From contig CM048845.1 of NCBI GenBank assembly GCA_026545225.1, positions 121,027,033 through 121,091,032 on the forward strand: 64,000 nt of DNA, given 5' to 3'. Both the position numbers and the translations under genes were made by a program. Under the pieces are notes generated by a model. It saw only the letters and a program-made list of their open reading frames with translations. It was not told where the DNA came from and did not search any database. This DNA is from Cornus controversa. Lineage: Eukaryota; Streptophyta; Magnoliopsida; Cornales; Cornaceae. Position 1 is the first letter of the stretch. Each line of letters begins with the position of its first letter. Positions 22,419-49,500 of this stretch are shown here, in pieces.

Positions 22419-23042
22419 TCAATCAGCTCCAAGTTCTGTGGAATTCCATATACAAACCTCCAAATTCAGCTGCCCAGATGAACCTAAATAACTAAATGGA
22501 ATCAGAAGAAAATCCATCGGAGGAAAACCTTCTACCCGCCCTGGAAAATTTTGTGTACACGATTTTAATCTAAGGGAGCTGATTCCCCTTTCTGAAACAA
22601 TATCATACAAGAAATGCTCCTTCGATGAGCTTGAGCTTGGTCCAATACAAGTTATCATGATCATATGCCCAATATTTTCAATCCCCTTGTTGAGGAGAAA
22701 GAGCATACCATCTTCCTCCGCTTGAAGAACAAGGAATGGCTCTTTCACACTTAAGGAGACAGGCAACGGGCAGTTATATTGAAAACGCCTGCCAGAATCC
22801 CAATGTTTACTGCTGAAGTGCAGTGACAACTGTTCAGATGATCCAACAAAGTTGCAATCCTCAAGGGGGCATGCACATGGTGCACAAGTGCATGTTTCTT
22901 CATGGTCATTTTTCTTCATGTAATCCACTGTTTCTGTGCACCCATACTCTGTGTTTCGGCAAGGTGCTTTGACCGATTCAATAACCACCTCAATGTCCCC
23001 ACACACTACATTCCCTTTCTCATGATTAACCGGTATATTTGC
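22419..23042 (-). CDS. SINA-like E3 ubiquitin ligase, C-terminal part only (5' end missing)
   Basis: A minus-strand exon begins after TTTTTGACAG at 23042 and runs 207 codons to a stop at 22419. It opens ANIPVNHEKG, then has the SIAH-type zinc finger (CRNTEYGC, HEETCTCAPCACP, CNFVG and LSLHFSSKH supply the Cys and His ligands) and the substrate-binding C-terminus. By alignment with the SINA-like gene at 38.3-45.6 kb, the exon starts just after the last RING cysteines. No RING exon is visible between here and the HMG-type gene at 32-34 kb on the same strand, and retrotransposons occupy that interval. It is either a 5'-truncated copy, a RING-less SINA protein with an unseen first exon, or a gene broken by insertion. 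The body of the exon has no internal stop or frameshift, so the truncation may be recent or the product still selected. In-frame GTG near 23006 is not taken as a start. Confidence 0.78.
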   Translation of the reverse strand, partial: ANIPVNHEKGNVVCGDIEVVIESVKAPCRNTEYGCTETVDYMKKNDHEETCTCAPCACPLEDCNFVGSSEQLSLHFSSKHWDSGRRFQYNCPLPVSLSVKEPFLVLQAEEDGMLFLLNKGIENIGHMIMITCIGPSSSSSKEHFLYDIVSERGISSLRLKSCTQNFPGRVEGFPPMDFLLIPFSYLGSSGQLNLEVCIWNSTELGAD

Positions 23043-30850: not shown

Positions 30851-31300
30851 TCATTTTTCATCAATTGGTTCAGTCTCAGCCTCAGTGGTGCTTTTTTCAA
30901 ATGACTACAATAATGTTTTAAAGAAAATAGCATTTGGATTGTGTCCATCTATGTTATATGGACTTTCCGAAAGCACGTAAAGTTCCCATGTCAGACACAT
31001 GACACTGGGAGATACGGGTACAGGATATGTGCCCAACATATTTAGTTAGACATGCACTAAATAGCATATTCAACATTTTTCATCAAGTGGTTCAGTCTCA
31101 GCCTAAATGGTGCTTTTTTCAAATGACTATAAGATATTTTTTATGAAAATAGCATTTGATTTGTGTCCATCTATGGTATATGGACTTTCCAAAAGCACAT
31201 AAAGTTCCCATGTCAGAGACATGACACTGGGAGATAAGGATACAGGATATGTGCCCAACATATTTGGTTAGACATGCACTAAATAACATATTGAATAATT
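30850..31300. repeat. tandem duplication of about 225 bp
   Basis: Two units, beginning TTTTCATCAATTGGTTCAGT (about 30854) and TTTTCATCAAGTGGTTCAGT (about 31076). Both continue with GGTGCTTTTTTCAAATGACT, TATGGACTTTCC, ACATGACACTGGGAGATA and AGGATATGTGCCCAACATAT. They differ by scattered substitutions. Confidence 0.9.
30851..30904 (-). CDS. candidate terminal exon of the HMG/mobile-domain gene
   Basis: After ATTATTGTAG on the minus strand, 17 codons (SFEKSTTEAETEPIDEK) and a stop follow in the phase needed to continue from the 32137 donor. The acidic Ser/Thr/Glu tail is plausible for a C-terminus. The tandem duplicate at about 31076-31129 offers a competing acceptor that gives SFEKSTI and a stop. 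Support is only phase and acceptor. Confidence 0.35.
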   Translation of the reverse strand, partial: SFEKSTTEAETEPIDEK

Positions 31301-32136: not shown

Positions 32137-33838
32137 CGAGTTCGCCTCCTGCACAAGGGCAAGACCATGGTCAACCTCAGTGCTCACATCTCCCAGTTGC
32201 AGGCCATTCAATTCTGATTTGTTCCCTAATGACTCTGTCCCAAGGAACCTCTCCTTGTACATCACCTGCATTAGAAAAAGATAACTTGACGAATTTGCAT
32301 AAATAATATGTTATCATATGTTACAACTAAAATGTTACCTCCCCAAACCCATAACCACCAAGCTCTCTTTCTAGTTTTTCTCGCTCAGTAATTTCTTCCT
32401 CACCCCATGACGATAAGCATGGAGCAACAAGGGCTGATTCGCAAGGTCCTCCGACAGAGATGCTCTCATAATAAAGGAGCTGTGAACCAATAAAGGTAGG
32501 AAATAAATTTTTGTTTTTCAAATAAAAATAGACTTACAAAAATAGAAGTCTTCAGAAAACAGAATAGAAAGAAAGACCAAAGACACTTTATTTACCAAAA
32601 AAGAAAAAAGAAAGAAGAAAAGAAAAAGACACTTTGTAACATTCTCCTTTACCTGGAGAAACAAAAGACAACCACCTACTGCTCGCTGCTTCCCTTGACG
32701 AAAGCGAGATACCTCACGAACTAGCCGATCCAGCAAGAATTTCCCCCAGTTGTACTGATGGATGACATCAATATTTGTCAAAACGTGAAGGAATGAAGGG
32801 CTGACATCCAGCCTTGCTGTAGGGCACAAAAGAGTGCCCAATGCATAGAGGACAAATGATCTCTTAAAGCCATCTCCTGCTTCTGGAGCTGCCAACCGCT
32901 CCTCCAAGAGGCGGACAGAAATCCCATGATTCGTAGCATTATAACTTTGACGCAATTCCGTAATTAAATCATCAGGCCCTGAATTAACCACATCCTTCCC
33001 ACTAGCTGCTAATCCCATCACAAGTTCCACATCCCGCGGTGATAAAGGAATGCGCTCATTAGAAATCTCCAAGCAGCGTCGCACAGTGTTAAATCTCTCC
33101 AATAGCCAAAGACACAAACTGCGACGGAGGGTTCTACATCTGAGACCAAGGAGGCTACCAAAACCCAGGCTCTTTACAGCATCCTTTTGGTCAGGTGTCA
33201 GGCGTTGTAAAACATTGAACAGACGACCAGGAGAACATCTGGTGACTAGTTTGGCCTGCATCACATAGGTTGTAAGATTCGTGTAATGTAGAGCATCAAT
33301 AAAAAACAATCACTCAGAAAATACTTTACCTGTTTTCTTGGTTTAGGGACACGGAGAGGAGCATTGCTCAAGTAGTTATCCCACACTTCACGAGCACGCT
33401 GAGTGTATTTTGCTTTCTCCTCGAGGCTCATGGACTTCCAAGCATCTGAAGCTGCCTTCGTGGCCTAAAATAAACAGAGATACTTCCTCCAAATTACGGT
33501 TTAGATTTTTATTTAGAAAAAAGAACTGTGCATTATAATTTTAAGACTAAATTAGGAGGCTTACAGCTTTTAAGCCTGAGGATTCAGGATGGGAAGCACT
33601 GTACTCTTTGATAAACTCGCGACTAAAACAATTAATTTAGACATAAGTACGTCGACAAGAATAATTCCGCAAGGCATATGCTAACATATCTGAGATACCA
33701 CTTTCAATAAACCAACTAATACCTAAAATGCACCCAGGAGCAAGCAGGACGAGGCGTGGCATCCTGCTTCTTCTTCTTCTTCTTTTTCCTATTCCCTTCA
33801 AATGCAGTAAGCTCTTGGTCCTTTCTCTTTCCCATCAT
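32137..33838 (-). CDS. HMG-box protein with a plant mobile-domain-like C-terminal region
   Basis: Minus-strand exons 33838-33723, 33622-33565, 33464-33330, 33255-32653, 32479-32339 and 32265-32137 join in phase with GT/AG borders to give 394 residues; the 3' end probably lies in one more exon (see 30851-30904). The start is the MMGKRKDQELTAFEG Met pair at 33838, just inside an exon opened at 33859. Residues about 18-25 are a poly-Lys nuclear-localisation-like run. Residues about 30-100 read as an HMG box: SWVHFSREFIKEYSASHPES, then AASDAWKSMSLEEKAKYTQR and YLSNAP, with the Trp/Lys-Tyr core. Residues about 105-350 (SPGRLFNVLQRL, SLGFGSLLGLRC, RIPLSPRDVELVMGL, YNWGKFLLDRLVREV, GGCLLFLQ) match the mobile-domain-like region found in plant Ulp1-type and transposon-derived proteins. 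DNA binding in the nucleus is inferred from the HMG box; the second region has no known activity. The exon structure and open frames suggest a functional host gene. Confidence 0.85.
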
Positions 33839-38323: not shown

Positions 38324-41137
38324 TTATATTTGTGTAGGCATCCGGATGCAAAGTTGCAACTTGAGCTGCCCACAGATGAAATCATTAGGTATCAGAAGAA
38401 ACCCCTTGTCAGGAAGATGTTCAAACCAGCTTGGCATGTTCTCTGCGAAAGAATGCAATCTCACTGAGCTGCCCTCATTTCTCGCCGTAAGATCATAACA
38501 AAACCTGCTCTTTAATGAGCGCGGCCCAATACAATTAACACATACCAAATTTCCAATAATTTCAATAACATTGTTGAGGATAAAAATTATGCCTTCATTC
38601 TGTTCTCGAAGAATAAGGTACTTTTGATCCACTTTTAATGAAACAGAGAAGGGGCAGTTGTAGAAGAAACACTTGGCTGAATTTGAATGTTTGGTGCCGA
38701 AGTGTAGGGATAACTCCTTAAAGGAGCCAACAAAGTCGCAGTCAGGAAGAGGGCATGAACAAGGTGCATGGATGCACGTCTCCTCGTGTTCATGTTTCTT
38801 ACTGTAACTCATTGTCTCTCCACAACCATACTTCACGTTTCGGCATGATATTTTGACAGATTCAAGAACTTTCTCAATGCCCCGGCAACGGTTATAACCA
38901 ATTGGCAAAGAGCAAGAGGGACACTTGTTCCCAAGCTTGATGCAGCAGGAGGAGCATGCTATATGTCCATTCTCACACTACGTTGTGATTCAGCAAAAAG
39001 AAACATATCAGATTTTTATTCTTTTATATGCCTTGTAATTTAAGCATTATAAGTGTAACTAGCTGGGAATAACAGTTACAATTTCAGCTGGATACTTAGA
39101 TTCAAGAAAGAACCATAACTTTAGGCACCCAATGTATCTCAAATAGCAGATAAAACATAAAGTTTCAGAGACCACCAACATGGTAAACCCTTACATGGGA
39201 ACAGCAGATCATATTTATCATGTCAAATTGAATATCTTGCTCACTAAGGACTGTTTCCCTAGTTAAAAATAGAAGAATAGTTTTTTAATCAAAAAAATAT
39301 ATTTCAGATTGGTCTGGTGCGTTTCTCTCTCTCTCTCTCTCTCTCTCTCCAGAAAGAATCTGAAATGTTTAAAGGTCTTCTGTGCACACGTCCAAACCAT
39401 TTTAACCAGTTTTCTCTCATTTTATCTTGACCCTGAAGAACTAGATATTGAAACTAATTGTCAAAGCACAGTTTATGGATCTCACCCACTGAGAGACACT
39501 AGAGTCGACCAAATTGTATGCGAGTGAATTGGAAACCTGGATACAACATGTAATAATCCCCATACCAAACAGTTCAGAGCATCCAAATCCAACAGAATAG
39601 TAGCATACTAGTCACAGGAACAATTTTGTCCTAGGTCCCACAACCTGGTTGGAACAATTACCACTAATCCATGATTCTTTCATTGTTTGATCTAAATCAC
39701 ATAAAAAACTGCATCCAAGATTAAAAAAACTAAGCAGTACAGACTGCAGAGTCATATTTAGAGAAAGAAAGGGATATCACATCCACAACAAAAGTTGTGT
39801 CATGAGTCATGACAATGTACAAGCCAACAGCGATGGATGTAACATCCAATATTTCCACAAATGCAGGGGAGCAGGACAATCGGTGAGCAAAGACTGCTCT
39901 CTTAGTTTTGAACTACCCTCGTGAAATTCATTTTTCACATAAATCAAGTGAAGGCAAAGTTTTTAATGGACTAGAGAATAAAAGAAACAAACAAAAAAAA
40001 GTGCTTCCTATTAGAAATTGTTGAAGAAAATCTGACTCCAAGGATGCCATGAAATCATATATATATATATTGATTAGTCAAGGATGCCATGAAATCATGA
40101 AAAGGAGAATAAAGCAAATAAAACGACAGGAAAAGAGACTTCCAAGGATGCATGCTTCAATGTGAACAGTTTTTAACTTTCTACATTTTAAGAAAGTTCT
40201 TAGGGATTTAGAAAGAGGAGCCGGGAAAAAAAATTGGAAGCGAACATAGAGGAATCAGTGATGGTTAATCCCTTTGAGTGATGCACTAGACATACATCCA
40301 ATTAACAAAAAGCATTTATTATATTAAACTCTTCACCAGCAATAGCCTCAATTGTGTCATGTTCTATATCAGGGAGCCTATAGAGTTCCCCGTTGAGCTA
40401 GAAGATGCTTGTATGATGTATTTTATACCCTTGCTGTTGGAGCTATTTAACTTTAGTATCATTCTGATAAGAAGGATATGACATTCAGCAAGACAAGAAG
40501 CCGAAAAATAGAAGAGTAATAATGGTGCAGTAATCAAAATTCATATAGTAGTAATAATACGAGAAAAATTTGCTGTAAAAAAAAATCAGAAACATAAAAT
40601 ACAGACATTAAGGGTATTTGGCAACAATTTTTATTTTGCATTTTCGATTTCATATGAAGCAGAAACAGTAATATATATGTATATGTATATTTGTGGTGTG
40701 ATTTATTCCACAACAAAAACATATTTTTTAAAATAGGATTTACATGTATTGGTTTTTTTTTTTTAAAATCTCATTACAATTGTTTGGCTACAAATGCAAA
40801 AACAAGTGAAAATGACCTTTCTCTTTCTTTCTTTCTTTCTCACTTTTTTTTTTTTTGCTTTCAGATTTGGGTCTTTTTTTGAAACATTTTCAGAATTATG
40901 CAAAACGTAACAAACATTATCAAATGTGTTTTCGTCACTTATTTATCTTTTTCACCAATTTGCTAACAAAAACACAAAACTATTGCCAAACAAACCCCAA
41001 GTGTACAACATTCAAGTAATAAATTTTAAACATAGAGAATAAAAAGAAGAATAAGAAGAGAGAAAAGAAGGTTACTGCACATATATCGTACATGAGTGCA
41101 TGAGGAAGAAAAATTTTAAGAAGAAAAAAAAAAAGAA

Positions 41138-44100: not shown

Positions 44101-45630
44101 CTCATTCAATGACTAAGAACTTACTTAACAATATGTGGGTATACCAAATTCAATGCAAAATAGAGAGGCTCGTTCAAACACCAACTCAATCACAATATCT
44201 AACTAAATTTTGCTACTTATGCAATAGTCTGTCTTGGTAAAGGGAGAAATTCCCAGGTAAGATGGAAACTTGTAGGTATTAAAGCTTGTGATTGTCCGTC
44301 TGGAATTTTGAAGAGTGAACTTTTCAGTTCATACTTCATACTGAACATATAAGGAATAAAGCCAACTAACAGGTGTGAACCAGACCAAAAAAAATTATAA
44401 TACTAAGAAACAATAACAAGAAGAACCAAACTCTAATCTTTTAATCATCATCATTATAACAATACACCAATTATGCCTCCAATTGCAAGGATTACCTGCA
44501 AGATTATTTTGTTTCTCAATAATATCCAAAGAGTGTAATCACGTATTCTCCCTCTCCATTTTAAAATATAAAGAGTGCAAAAAGGTATAGATCTCATTTG
44601 AAAGCTTGAAGAGGGCAGTAAAGGATTGTGTAGTGATGCAAATGGATTTTGTGGGATTCCATTTGAGGGAAGGAAGAGAACAATAGAGTTAGACAGAGAA
44701 GATTGTGCAAGGTTTCAGCCTTTCAGGCAGGTGGTATGGAATAATTTCAGCAGGAATCAAAGATGGTGGCTAAAACCCACCAATTATTTTGCCAGCCAGC
44801 GCCCGGCCTCTCTATATCTACTTAATTTAGGGCCTTATTGCAACAGATCTGAAAGTTTATCATTCGTCCGGTCGATCAAAATTCTATAGATTTTAGAGTG
44901 AATTTTTAAGTGATTCACACTATATCTTCCTTACTTTTCGTTTCCATATTATAACTCATGCCCATCTTTGCTGGTTTTGAATACACTAAAACCCACACAA
45001 TTAGAACACCTGCCAATGAACCTATAACAGAGAGAACACTACAGTAACACAGCGTAAGACAAAATTCCAGAACTATGTGATCACACATATATGATATAAA
45101 TACACCCAATCAGGATATCAGAGAGAGATTGGAAGAAAATAAATATGGTACCAGAAAGACAAGAATATTGAAAGAAAACGTACCTGAAAGACAGGAATGC
45201 TCAAGGGTTCAAAGCAAATGGGGCAATCCAACACATCTGGGTCGGTTAGGGTAACGGAAATGGAGCCATCTCGGTTGGGTTCCAAAGAAGCACGATTCTT
45301 GCGGTTGGCACCACCGATCGATTCCAATGATACCCCATATGTTGTGTTTTCATCTTCGTTCTGACTCTCCTCCTCTTCTTCTTCTTCCTCTTCTTCTTCG
45401 CCTTCAGATTCAACTTCTTCCTCATCATATTCATCGTTTTCTTCTTCTTCTTCTTCACATTCTTCTTCTTCTTCTTCAGCTACTTCTTCATGTTCTTCTT
45501 CTTGTTCCTCTTGTTCTGGTCTTTGAGTGCAGGTAGTCCTCTGTTTCTTGGGCGTTGGTCTGCTAGGTCCTTCGTCATCGTATAATTCATATCCTTCGCT
45601 TTCATCTACTGACATCGAAAATTTCACCAT
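38324..45630 (-). CDS. SINA-like E3 ubiquitin-protein ligase (RING + SIAH-type zinc finger), complete
   Basis: Two minus-strand exons, 45630-45184 (149 codons) and 38977-38324 (217 codons plus stop), separated by a 6206 bp intron; together 366 residues, the usual length of plant SINA-like proteins. The N-terminus MVKFSMSVDESEGYELYDD is followed by a very acidic low-complexity region (residues about 40-88, mostly Glu). The RING spans the splice: DCPICFEPLSIPVFQ in exon 1 and CENGHIACSSCCIKLGNKCP in exon 2 give C3HC4 ligands. The SIAH zinc finger follows (CRNVKYGC, HEETCIHAPCSCP, CDFVG, LSLHFGTKH) and then the substrate-binding domain to PTQI. It should transfer ubiquitin from an E2 to target proteins for proteasomal turnover; targets are unknown. 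Upstream, a 204 bp duplication has copied its start codon (see 45622-46029). The paralogue at 22.4-23.0 kb lacks the RING. Confidence 0.93.
41144..41188. repeat. (AT)n microsatellite
   Basis: About 22 AT dinucleotides followed by GAGAGAG, within a purine-rich to A+T-rich block of the SINA-like intron. Confidence 0.95.
42227..43455. repeat. dispersed three-copy repeat within the SINA-like intron
   Basis: ATGCCAAACAAAGCACCAAA occurs at about 42240 and 42337, about 97 bp apart. The intervening segment (ACAATACAGGTAAAGAGAGT, then CTGTTGGCTATGCATTACCT) recurs in diverged form at about 43396-43455 (CAATACAAGCAAAGACGGTC, then CCGTTGGCCATGCATAATCT). Confidence 0.7.
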
Positions 45631-46029
45631 CTCTCTCCCTCTCTCTCTATCTGTAGACTATTGTGAAATCAGGGGAAACTGCCACTTTTTCAATAGTTAT
45701 ACAATACTATACCTATTATATATTTTTCTCGATAAATATTTAAAATATAATATCAAACAACAATTCTATCCTACAAAGCATACAAGACAATTTACTGTCT
45801 TAACATTTACCGAATATATATTTACTTTCACCATCTCTCTCCCTCTCTCTCTATCTGTAGACTATTGTGAAATCAGGGGAAACTGCCACTTTTTCAATAG
45901 TTATACAATACTATACCTATTATATATTTTTCTAGATAAATATTTAAAATATAATATTAAACAACAATTCTATCCTACAAAGCATACAAGACAATTTACT
46001 GTCTTAACATTTACCGAATATATATTTAC
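45622..46029. repeat. 204 bp tandem duplication at the SINA-like start
   Basis: Units 45622-45825 and 45826-46029 are nearly identical (I see only two or three substitutions, for example CTCGATAA versus CTAGATAA). Each begins, on the plus strand, TTTCACCATCTCTCTCCCTC and includes ATCAGGGGAAACTGCCACTT. The CAT within the first block is the complement of the SINA-like start codon, so the duplication unit starts inside codon 4 and includes the leader. Confidence 0.95.
45766..45834 (-). CDS. upstream ORF created by the duplication
   Basis: The copied start context on the minus strand reads ATGGTGAAA, the same first three codons as the SINA-like protein (Met-Val-Lys), then diverges into the repeat and stops after 22 codons (TAG at 45766-45768). 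If transcription begins upstream of 45834 this is a translated leader ORF with the gene's own native start context, ending 136 bases before the true ATG. If transcription starts downstream it is inert. Confidence 0.55.
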   Translation of the reverse strand: MVKVNIYSVNVKTVNCLVCFVG

Positions 46030-46071
46030 TGTCTTAATATTTTCCAATATATATATATATACACACATATA

Positions 46072-46208
46072 GAAGACAATTAAAAAAAAAATCCTAGAAT
46101 TGACTCAAAATTTCAATAATGCGAGAGAATAACTCAAGGGCTCTCGCATTATTGAAATTTTGAGCCAATTCTAAGATTTTTTTTTTTTTTTTTTTTGTTA
46201 ATTGTCTT
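46072..46208. repeat. near-perfect fold-back (hairpin) sequence
   Basis: A 36-base arm ending TTTCAATAATGCGAGAG at 46127 pairs with 46141-46176 (starting CTCTCGCATTATTGAAATTT) at 34 of 36 positions around a 13-base loop. A/T tracts and GAAGACAATT / AATTGTCTTT extend the pairing on both sides. It looks like a fold-back MITE or a young hairpin locus. It lies 440 bp upstream of the SINA-like start. Confidence 0.9.
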
Positions 46209-46717
46209 TTATATGTAAGAAGAGAGTTGTACATGTGGATGGTACAATATTGGTGTTTTAAATAAGTTTGGGCCTTAAATTATTTAAAAGGTATAGTCTA
46301 AACAATCCAACTCATTCCTCTTAAAATTTAAACTGGCCCAATCAATTCCTCAAAATTATAACAGGATAACAGGCCCAACTCATTCCTCTTAAACTTAAAA
46401 CAATCCAAGCCCATTATCCTTCCCAAGTCCAACTCCCATATAATATATAAGCCACCAAACCCTAATCTTCTCTTTCTCATACTAAGTGGTCGCTAACGCA
46501 AGAGACAATTGTTGCCACTTGCCACCACCAAGCCTCCAGTGACGCATCATTTTTTGACAAATCACTTCAGCTACTAACTCAATCGCACTTGCAGCTACAT
46601 GTGCATCTTTCTCATCTACTCTTATATCTCTCTCTCTTTGTTTTTAAAATTTGCATCAATGTTGAATGGCTTGGTGAATATGTGGAGATCTAATAATGGT
46701 TGAATGGTTGACATTTA
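46209..46717. other. spacer with short repeats
   Basis: CCAACTCATTCCTCTTAAA occurs near 46308 and again near 46376. An AACCCTAATCTTCTCTTTCTC leader-like motif near 46459 suggests a transcription start on the plus strand, but no ORF follows; CT run at about 46627-46640. Confidence 0.4.
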
Positions 46718-47190
46718 GGCCATGTTTAGTAGAATGGAAAATAAAAGAAAGGATAACGTTAGTAATGAAATAAAATCAAAGAAAAAAAAGGAAAGAATAG
46801 TGTTAAACTTTTATCGTGTTTGGTTGATTAGTAAAGGAAAAGAAAGGAAATGATAGTTAACATGTTTGGGGAAAGAAAGGAAAGGAAACAATTTAAAATT
46901 TTTACCATTATACCCTTTTATATTTAAAAGAACAAATTTTAGCTTTTATCAAAATAAGGGCAAAGTTGATATTAACAAAGTTTCATTAAAAAAGGTAGTA
47001 TTTCCTTTCCTTTCATTTCTTTCCATTTCTTCCTATTTTTGGAAGGATAACAAAAGTTATTATTCACCCTTAATTTATCCCTCCAAATCATTCCATTTCC
47101 TTTAAAAATTTCATACCAAACACACAAAACCATAACCCTCCAAATCCTTTCTTTTCTTTTCCTTCTATTTCTTTCCTACCAAACTGACCC
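46718..47190. mobile_element. Tourist-like (PIF/Harbinger) MITE, TTA TSD
   Basis: 473 bp flanked by TTA at 46715-46717 and 47191-47193. Terminal inverted repeats: left GGCCATGTTTAGTAGAATGG, right reverse complement GGGTCAGTTTGGTAGGAAAG; both continue into purine-rich AAAGAAAGGAAA arms (TTTCCTTTC on the other side). No ORF of a transposase. Confidence 0.82.
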
Positions 47191-47193
47191 TTA

Positions 47194-47560
47194 GTCTAAT
47201 ATCTCATCTCATCAATGGTTGATGCATGTTATCGAGCTCGTCAAGCCGAGCTCAATTATTGTTAGGTTAGACTTGATCAAGCTCGAGCTGAGTTTGAACA
47301 CATCTATTTATTTGGCAATTCGAGCCTAAACACTCTAAGATTTGGCTCGACTTGGCTCGATTGCAATCTAGGAAGCACGGATACTTCCCCCTGGGGTGCC
47401 GTGGCGGTATCAAACACTCGAACACGTTTTGGATACGACTCGAATGCATGTCAGATACGGCTAGAAGTTACGACGTATATTTTTGTAATTGGCGATTTTC
47501 GGTATTAAAACTAAATATGATCGAGTTATAATCTTTGCTTTAGATTCTTATCATTGATTG
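47194..47560. mobile_element. fragments of short interspersed elements
   Basis: 47230-47350 is rich in GAGCTCG/CAAGCTCGAGCTG and GGCTCGACTTGGCTCGA. 47370-47470 has AAGCACGGATACTTCCCCCT, GGGGTGCCGTGGCGGTAT and ACACGTTTTGGATACG. Both are motifs common in non-autonomous elements of dicots; ends are not resolved. Confidence 0.45.
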
Positions 47561-48592
47561 TGTAATTGAAGTCTCAGAGTGAGCATAAAGTTCTACACCA
47601 ACCATGCAAGTGCTCTTCAAAGGATGAAACTTCAATCTTCGAAAGAAACCATCAATGGTCTGAACAAGGATTCGATTAATTGAAGTTTTGAGATAATTTC
47701 GATTGCATGAGAACATTGTTGATCACGTATAAAAGTCACATAGTCCAAGTAAAGTGGTGAGAACACGTATATTTCAAACTAAGAGCTTCCGACCTTAAAA
47801 AGTGGGACTTTTAAGCAAAAAATGAATAATTCAAGGTTAGACCGGTCCAGGGTTTAAGCTGGACCGATCCAAAAGGTCTCAGGATTCCAATTTTTTGCAG
47901 GCAAAAGGCTGGACCGGTCCAAGGAATAGGCTGGACTGGTCCAAGCTTGCTGCTGGTGAAATTTGATCCTGTAGTGTCCTGTTTTGACCCGGAATTAACT
48001 CTGAAAATTTCTTAAACTCTGGGACTTATTTTCTATTAATTTTTCAACTTGTTTATAAAAAAAAATTAGAGTTTTTAATCTCTACAAAAATCTCATATGG
48101 TTTCTCTCTCATTAGTGAAGAAGGAGAAGAAGATTGTGCTACGAAGGGGACAGAATACTTGTTGAGTATTCATATTTTTTTAGTTACTCTTCTGCAAGGA
48201 TATTGATGTTAGCCGAGAATCTGCCGCAATTGGACGAGGTAGTCACAATAGTAAACTTGAGGTGTTCCACATCAAGTTCTTGTCAGAGTGGAGTGGGTGT
48301 GAGTCTGTTATACTTTGCTTCAACGATAGTGGATTTGCTTCTCTGGGGCTAAAAGCCTCACCTGTGAATTTTTTTCGATCTAAGTTTTTCACGTATATTT
48401 GGTGGATTTGTTTACTTTATTGCACTTTATTTTATTTACTTGCTTTGTGGGATTGATTTAATTTTAATTGGACTTAAAATTGGATAATTTGAAAGATTAA
48501 GCAAAAAGTGAATAAACCTAATCACTCTCCTCCCCCCTCTAGGTTTTAAATCTAACTTTTGTAGTCGCTTCCGCACCGCGCAACGCACAATT
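47560..48592 (+). mobile_element. copia-like LTR followed by a primer-binding site
   Basis: About 1 kb ending with CTCCCCCCTCTAGG and CGCACAA, directly before TTGGTATCAAAACAATG at 48591, a variant of the initiator-tRNA-Met primer site. This arrangement is typical of Ty1/copia 5' LTRs. Inside are four GGACCGGTCC-type palindromic motifs (47843-47943, some with one change). The left end is not defined, and the internal region and second LTR are missing; it runs within about 60 bp into an antisense gypsy gag. Confidence 0.55.
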
Positions 48593-48659
48593 GGTATCAA
48601 AACAATGTTCTCTAATTTGTGAGTAATTCCTTGCGAAATAATTTTTAAAATAAAAAAAT

Positions 48660-49500
48660 ATTTAGGTTGTCCCACTGAACCCACTGAACTCACTGAATGA
48701 GAAGGACCGCTCTTGAACCTCTTCTTAGCGTGTCCCTCTGAAGCAATTATTAAAACCTTACTTTGCTTCCAAGCCTCCATCTTCTCTTGCCTATCCTTTG
48801 TCTCAGCCTCAACCATCAAGGCATTTTTTACTACCTTGGTATAAACTTTTAAACCTAAAATAGACACAAATGGCCTAACCGAATGATGAAGGCCATTAAC
48901 AAACCTCCATATCTTCTCTTCCTCATCTCTCACCACCTTAGGTGCAAAGCGTGAAAGAAAAATGAATTTGTTCTCATATTCAGTTACGGTCATGCCATCA
49001 TGAACTAGTTCCTCGAATTTCTTCCTTAGCGCCCTCCTCTTCGACCCAGGAAAATAATGCTTATGAAATAAAGTCTTAAACTCTTCACATGCCATTGTCT
49101 CAAGATCGTGTTGGTCACTCACTGACTTCCACCATAATTCAGCAACATCTAAAAACAAGTATGTAGTAAGAATCACTTTTATCCCATCATTGGGAGTAGA
49201 CATTATCTTTAGGTGCTTCTCTACTTGCTCCAACCAATTATCCGCTATCAACGGATCTGAACTTCCCTCAAAACTAGGAGGCATTAACTTTTTTAATCGA
49301 GTGATAAACTTGAAACACCTCTCACTTTCACTCTTCTCCAGTTGCACTACCGGTTGTTATACTTCATTAACTGTAGTCCTTACAAAGTCTCTAAGGATTG
49401 CGGTCATATCAGTGACCAAAAGGTGTCCCTCAGGAATTTCAACCCCAACTGCCCCTCCTCAACGTTTAGGTGGCATAACTCTATATAGTCAATAATAATA
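48660..49500 (-). pseudogene. Ty3/gypsy gag remnant
   Basis: Minus-strand frame with the retrotransposon gag domain: FKFITRLKKLMPPSFEGSSD, then ADNWLEQVEKHLKIM, DVAELWWKSVSDQHD, FKTLFHKHYFPGSKRRALRK and EYENKFIFLSRFAPKV. Its start region carries an in-frame stop (position about 49360), and on the 3' side it loses similarity near 48660, before any zinc knuckle, protease or reverse transcriptase. It is preceded at the correct distance and orientation by the LTR at 49825-53830, so this is the 5' end of a truncated gypsy element running toward lower coordinates. Confidence 0.85.

Follow-up and report, generated by a model that had tools for sequence, protein, structure and literature searches.

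A young 204-bp tandem duplication has copied the start codon of a predicted SINA-like ubiquitin ligase gene in Cornus controversa

The SINA-like gene and its surroundings

We analyzed a window of 64,000 nucleotides from contig CM048845.1 of the Cornus controversa assembly GCA_026545225.1. Its minus strand carries a gene that is predicted to encode a plant SINA-like RING E3 ligase and whose open reading frame is intact; a 204-bp tandem duplication sits at the 5' end of this gene. Exon 1 (45184..45630; 447 nt, 149 codons) ends at the donor CTTTCAG|GTACG inside the RING domain, and exon 2 (38324..38977), on the far side of an intron of 6206 nt, encodes the remaining RING, the Sina zinc finger and the stop. 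We infer the join of the two exons from the RING and the protein reading across it. The resulting protein has 366 residues and its reading frame begins MVKFSMSVDE at ATG 45630.

Both diagnostic domains were detected above their curated cut-offs: the Sina RING domain (PF21362; E = 4.1e-11; 43.3 bits against 29.3) and the Sina zinc finger (PF21361; E = 4.2e-12; 46.7 bits against 32). A shortened query, from which an acidic stretch was removed, matched 11 SIAH1/SIAH2 sequences with solved structures. The best match was SIAH1 chain 9g0l (E = 7.8e-17; residues 79-167 of the shortened query), and the 11 PDB matches stop at about residue 194. SINA and SIAH proteins carry a C-terminal substrate-binding (TRAF-like) domain. 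No Pfam family was found in the C-terminal part of the predicted protein at E ≤ 0.001, and the two families that were listed both lie N-terminal to residue 248.

We did not find a second copy of exon 1 within the window (tblastn, E up to 0.01). Another SINA-like stretch at 22419-23006 on the minus strand encodes a Sina zinc finger and no RING in the frame that was read; this stretch could represent a pseudogene or a family member that lacks the RING. Arabidopsis SINA2 is described as lacking a canonical RING in the available part of PMC6048857.

Directly upstream of the duplication, and outside of it, lies a MITE-like foldback (46065..46216) with arms of 55 nt that are 89% complementary. The interval 46060-46215, folded as RNA, reaches −74.1 kcal/mol (z = −15.9), and none of 200 shuffled sequences folded as well; the search for RNA families in the window gave no match at gathering scores. 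On the plus strand at 46250-46480, GGCCCA/TGGGCC motifs and a AAACCCTAA motif were seen by eye near a TATATAA-like sequence. They resemble the elements known from housekeeping promoters as site II and telo-box, and this region is a possible divergent promoter. Farther upstream, 46717-47195 looks like a degenerate element with terminal inverted repeats, as judged from its inverted GGAAAG/CTTTCC arms, which fall between 46736 and 47176; we placed its outer limits by eye. The window also contains a fragment of a Ty3-type retrotransposon gag at 48436-49347 on the minus strand (Retrotrans_gag, E = 2e-14) and, at 32518-33309, a match to the plant mobile domain slightly below its cut-off; together with the SINA-like genes, this content is indicative of a plant genome.

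Structure, age and origin of the duplication

Tandem Repeats Finder reported the duplication at 45622-46030 with a period of 204, 2.0 copies, 99% matches and a score of 804, which is the top score among the 41 tandem repeats reported in the window. We judged such a match over 204 bp to be far above chance expectation. The two units are head to tail and directly adjoining, as found by a repeat search of the window. The proximal unit (45622..45825, minus strand) consists of the ATG GTG AAA codons of the real gene and the 195 bp 5' of them, which comprise the leader and DNA farther upstream. The distal unit (45826..46029, minus strand) has the same composition and differs from the proximal unit at two of 204 positions (45730 C against 45934 A, and 45754 C against 45958 T). 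A sequence-only reading of this locus had proposed two nearly identical units that comprise the leader and the Met-Val-Lys codons, and our results agree with it on both counts.

Near-identical tandem units are prone to assembly error, and it is conceivable that the real chromosome has a single unit that was doubled by misassembly or by unresolved heterozygosity. We consider this very improbable: the units differ at two sites, which makes a simple stutter less likely, and the assembly is made up of long contigs, with 771.7 Mb in 61 of them. A search of that assembly with the 408-bp pair of units found one match. With one match found and the foldback located outside the units, a mobile element is not supported as the cause of the duplication, although the search scored only the best candidates and skipped very common words and is therefore not proof.

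We estimated the age of the event from the two differences between the units, taking a range of substitution rates as background values for dating. A rate of 7e-9 per site per year gives about 0.7 Myr (95% range 0.08-2.5). The faster rate of 1.5e-8 gives 0.3 Myr, and the slower rate of 2.5e-9 gives 2.0 Myr with a range up to 7.1. These ages would be too young if gene conversion had occurred between the units. The second-highest score in the window belongs to another tandem duplication at 30852-31292 (period 222, two copies), which is probably older since its copies match at only 91%.

The junction of the units, read from the flanks, has 1 bp common to both ends, consistent with end joining that does not use long homology. 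Duplication by end joining or patch repair leaves adjacent direct copies whose junction shows little homology, and this is the arrangement found here. The edge of the distal unit overlaps a degenerate 30-bp repeat (ATTTACTGTCTTAA...) at 45994-46054, and the duplication terminates within this repeat. Small tandem duplications attributed to adjacent-nick repair are reportedly treated by Vaughn and Bennetzen in 2014 and by Schiml in 2016.

In rice, according to the portion of PMC7971508 that is available, small tandem duplications are attributed to adjacent-nick repair, and their share of events drops from 70% to 5% by 200 bp. By analogy, 204 bp would belong to the rare, long end of this class and would be an unusual size for patch repair. 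The case that we describe resembles the rice events in that a plant genome is affected and the length falls close to the upper limit of the enriched class, but the rice events are presented there as a general class of mutation with no tie to a start codon. End joining by CST and Pol alpha-primase also generates small tandem duplications, which the available part of PMC8355091 describes in mouse and human cells. Overall, the 204-bp duplication is real, young and of an ordinary kind for plants, and what it does to the gene depends on which of the two copies is transcribed.

The upstream ORF and candidate start sites

The copied ATG, at 45834 in the distal unit, opens an ORF of 22 codons (MVKVNIYSVNVKTVNCLVCFVG*; 45766..45834, minus strand) that arises at the junction of the units. 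This upstream ORF (uORF) ends at the TAG at 45768-45766, and a spacer of 135 nt separates it from the main ATG. The nine bases preceding the ATG and the +4 base are identical at 45834 and 45630 (GGGAGAGAG|ATGG), a context that we take to be a good one for initiation. Repressive uORFs have an upstream ATG in a good context and are closed before the main ATG, as is the case here. These details match what had been read from the sequence, namely an upstream ATG in the context of the real one and a stop after 22 codons. The proximal unit contains two further short ORFs (4 codons from 45806 and 13 codons from 45781).

The unit length is a multiple of three (204 = 3 × 68), so the frame is preserved between the two ATGs. 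We considered an N-terminal extension of the ligase from ATG 45834 and rejected it for an unspliced leader because three in-frame stops, with first bases at 45768, 45699 and 45660, lie in between. A pattern scan revealed a donor-like GTAAAT where the two units meet, followed by acceptor-like sites, and we considered that splicing of the leader could remove or alter the uORF. On the plus strand, an ORF of 181 aa (45527-46072) spans both units; it has a GTG start and runs through units whose length is a multiple of three, and it was treated as a chance ORF.

Whether the uORF matters depends on where transcription starts. Each unit contains a TATATAA motif on the minus strand: the proximal one (45716..45722) is at −92 from the main ATG and constitutes a weak candidate for the core promoter, and the distal one (45920..45926) lies 92 bp 5' of the upstream ATG, at −296 relative to the main ATG. 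Transcription starts about 28-36 nt downstream of a TATA box. If TATATAA is the core promoter, the predicted proximal leader is about 56-64 nt long with no upstream ATG, and the predicted distal leader is about 260-268 nt long with three upstream ATGs. The motif is nevertheless weak evidence for a promoter because the DNA of the unit is AT-rich and TATAWAW is common in Markov sequences: at least one was found by chance in 50% of 204-bp sequences modelled on the unit, in 16% of those modelled on the window, and in 13% of 46-nt stretches of the unit-like kind. A second TATAWAW is located inside the unit at −190 (45820; copy at 46024). A start set by the 45820 motif would fall near 45784-45792, as determined by hand, and would leave one upstream ATG (45781) in the leader. 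Further TATAWAW motifs lie upstream, at 46053-46061, 46213 and 46449.

These motifs bear on the possibility that the main transcript starts 5' of the copied ATG, such that all mRNAs contain the new uORF and the ligase is translated less. The context shared by the two ATGs and the TATAWAW motifs at 46053-46061 and 46213 are consistent with such a start, and uORFs are described as negative for translation of the main ORF in the available part of PMC7284334. However, the proximal unit has a TATATAA 92 bp 5' of the real ATG, weak evidence though it is, and the 135-nt spacer allows room for re-initiation. A start 5' of both units would also add the ATGs at 46010 and 45985 to the leader (and 46068 if it is far enough upstream), which means that, with such a start, the gene already had upstream ATGs before the duplication. 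We find it rather unlikely that all mRNAs carry the uORF. The sequence-only reading was correct that a SINA-like E3 gene has had its start codon copied by a young duplication, which made a uORF, but its further step, lowered translation, requires an mRNA start 5' of 45834 and is not established; it had itself named a copied promoter as the alternative, and neither of the two is proven.

The explanation that we favor is that a recent break-repair event copied, head to tail, 204 bp that probably include the proximal promoter region together with the leader and the first three codons. The proximal copy probably still starts the normal, uORF-free mRNA because the 195 bp immediately 5' of the ATG are retained in it; the simplest expectation from the sequence is that it still does the former job of the single copy. 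The distal copy probably serves as a second region of transcription start, and mRNAs from there would reach the real ATG only after the copied ATG with its 22-codon uORF and two more short uORFs. Such mRNAs would be poorly translated. The net effect is probably small. As a whole, we regard this explanation as fairly probable, and the duplication is most likely an ordinary product of break repair that changes expression little.

The same pair of start regions could act as a switch, in which near-identical core promoters 204 bp apart produce a uORF-laden mRNA from the distal copy and a uORF-free mRNA from the proximal copy, with the choice of start setting the output of protein. This seems improbable to us. 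If transcription starts 55-65 nt 5' of either ATG, the predicted proximal and distal leaders have the same sequence over their first 64-74 nt. Tags from the 5' end shorter than about 64-74 nt therefore cannot separate the copies; CAGE would need longer reads, and full-length cDNA suffices.

Comparison with known systems

In the literature that we consulted, parts of which were available only as excerpts, we did not find the same combination in a plant of a tandem duplication, a copied start codon and a uORF, which is not proof of its absence. A close structural parallel is the 408-bp tandem repeat (GCE) of VvmybA1 in teinturier grapes. As described in the available part of PMC7464560, it is likewise head to tail, a few hundred bp long and located just 5' of a plant gene, and both cases present short microhomology at the ends (3 bp in grape and 1 bp here). 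In contrast, the grape repeat covers 338-746 bp 5' of the ATG, and the start codon is copied here and not there; the grape repeat exists as 2, 3 or 5 perfect copies and has a phenotype, whereas we observed two copies with 2/204 differences. In wheat, TaALMT1 likewise has a block of its promoter region duplicated as tandem repeats; the accessible text of PMC6480313 reports constitutively high expression in tolerant lines and makes no mention of a copied start codon.

These systems raise the question of whether the duplication acts mainly as a doubled array of promoter or cis-elements that raises or widens transcription, with the uORF being incidental. Tandem promoter copies accompany higher expression at VvmybA1 (PMC7464560) and TaALMT1 (PMC6480313), and self-activation at apple MdMYB10 (PMC9485867), insofar as the available parts of these sources show. 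It follows that a gain of expression is possible as well as a loss. However, we identified no activator element in the unit with the simple motif patterns that were used, and we consider a doubled promoter with an incidental uORF to be quite unlikely.

The favored explanation, with a proximal start that omits the uORF, has its parallel in Arabidopsis. There, alternative start sites yield pairs of mRNAs with and without a uORF, and shifts of the start site past the uORF lift its repression, according to the available part of PMC7284334. Similarly, the predicted distal start of the ligase gene includes the uORF and the predicted proximal start omits it, and by analogy a proximal start would spare the gene from uORF repression. 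The Arabidopsis pairs are mapped, blue-light-regulated shifts, whereas the pair that we describe is predicted and would be born by duplication. If the proximal copy alone is used, the locus is a neutral example of a common class of plant mutation. If both copies start transcription, a single mutation has produced mRNAs with and without a uORF from nearly equal promoter sequence, and the locus would allow the cost of a new uORF to be measured against an almost unchanged promoter.
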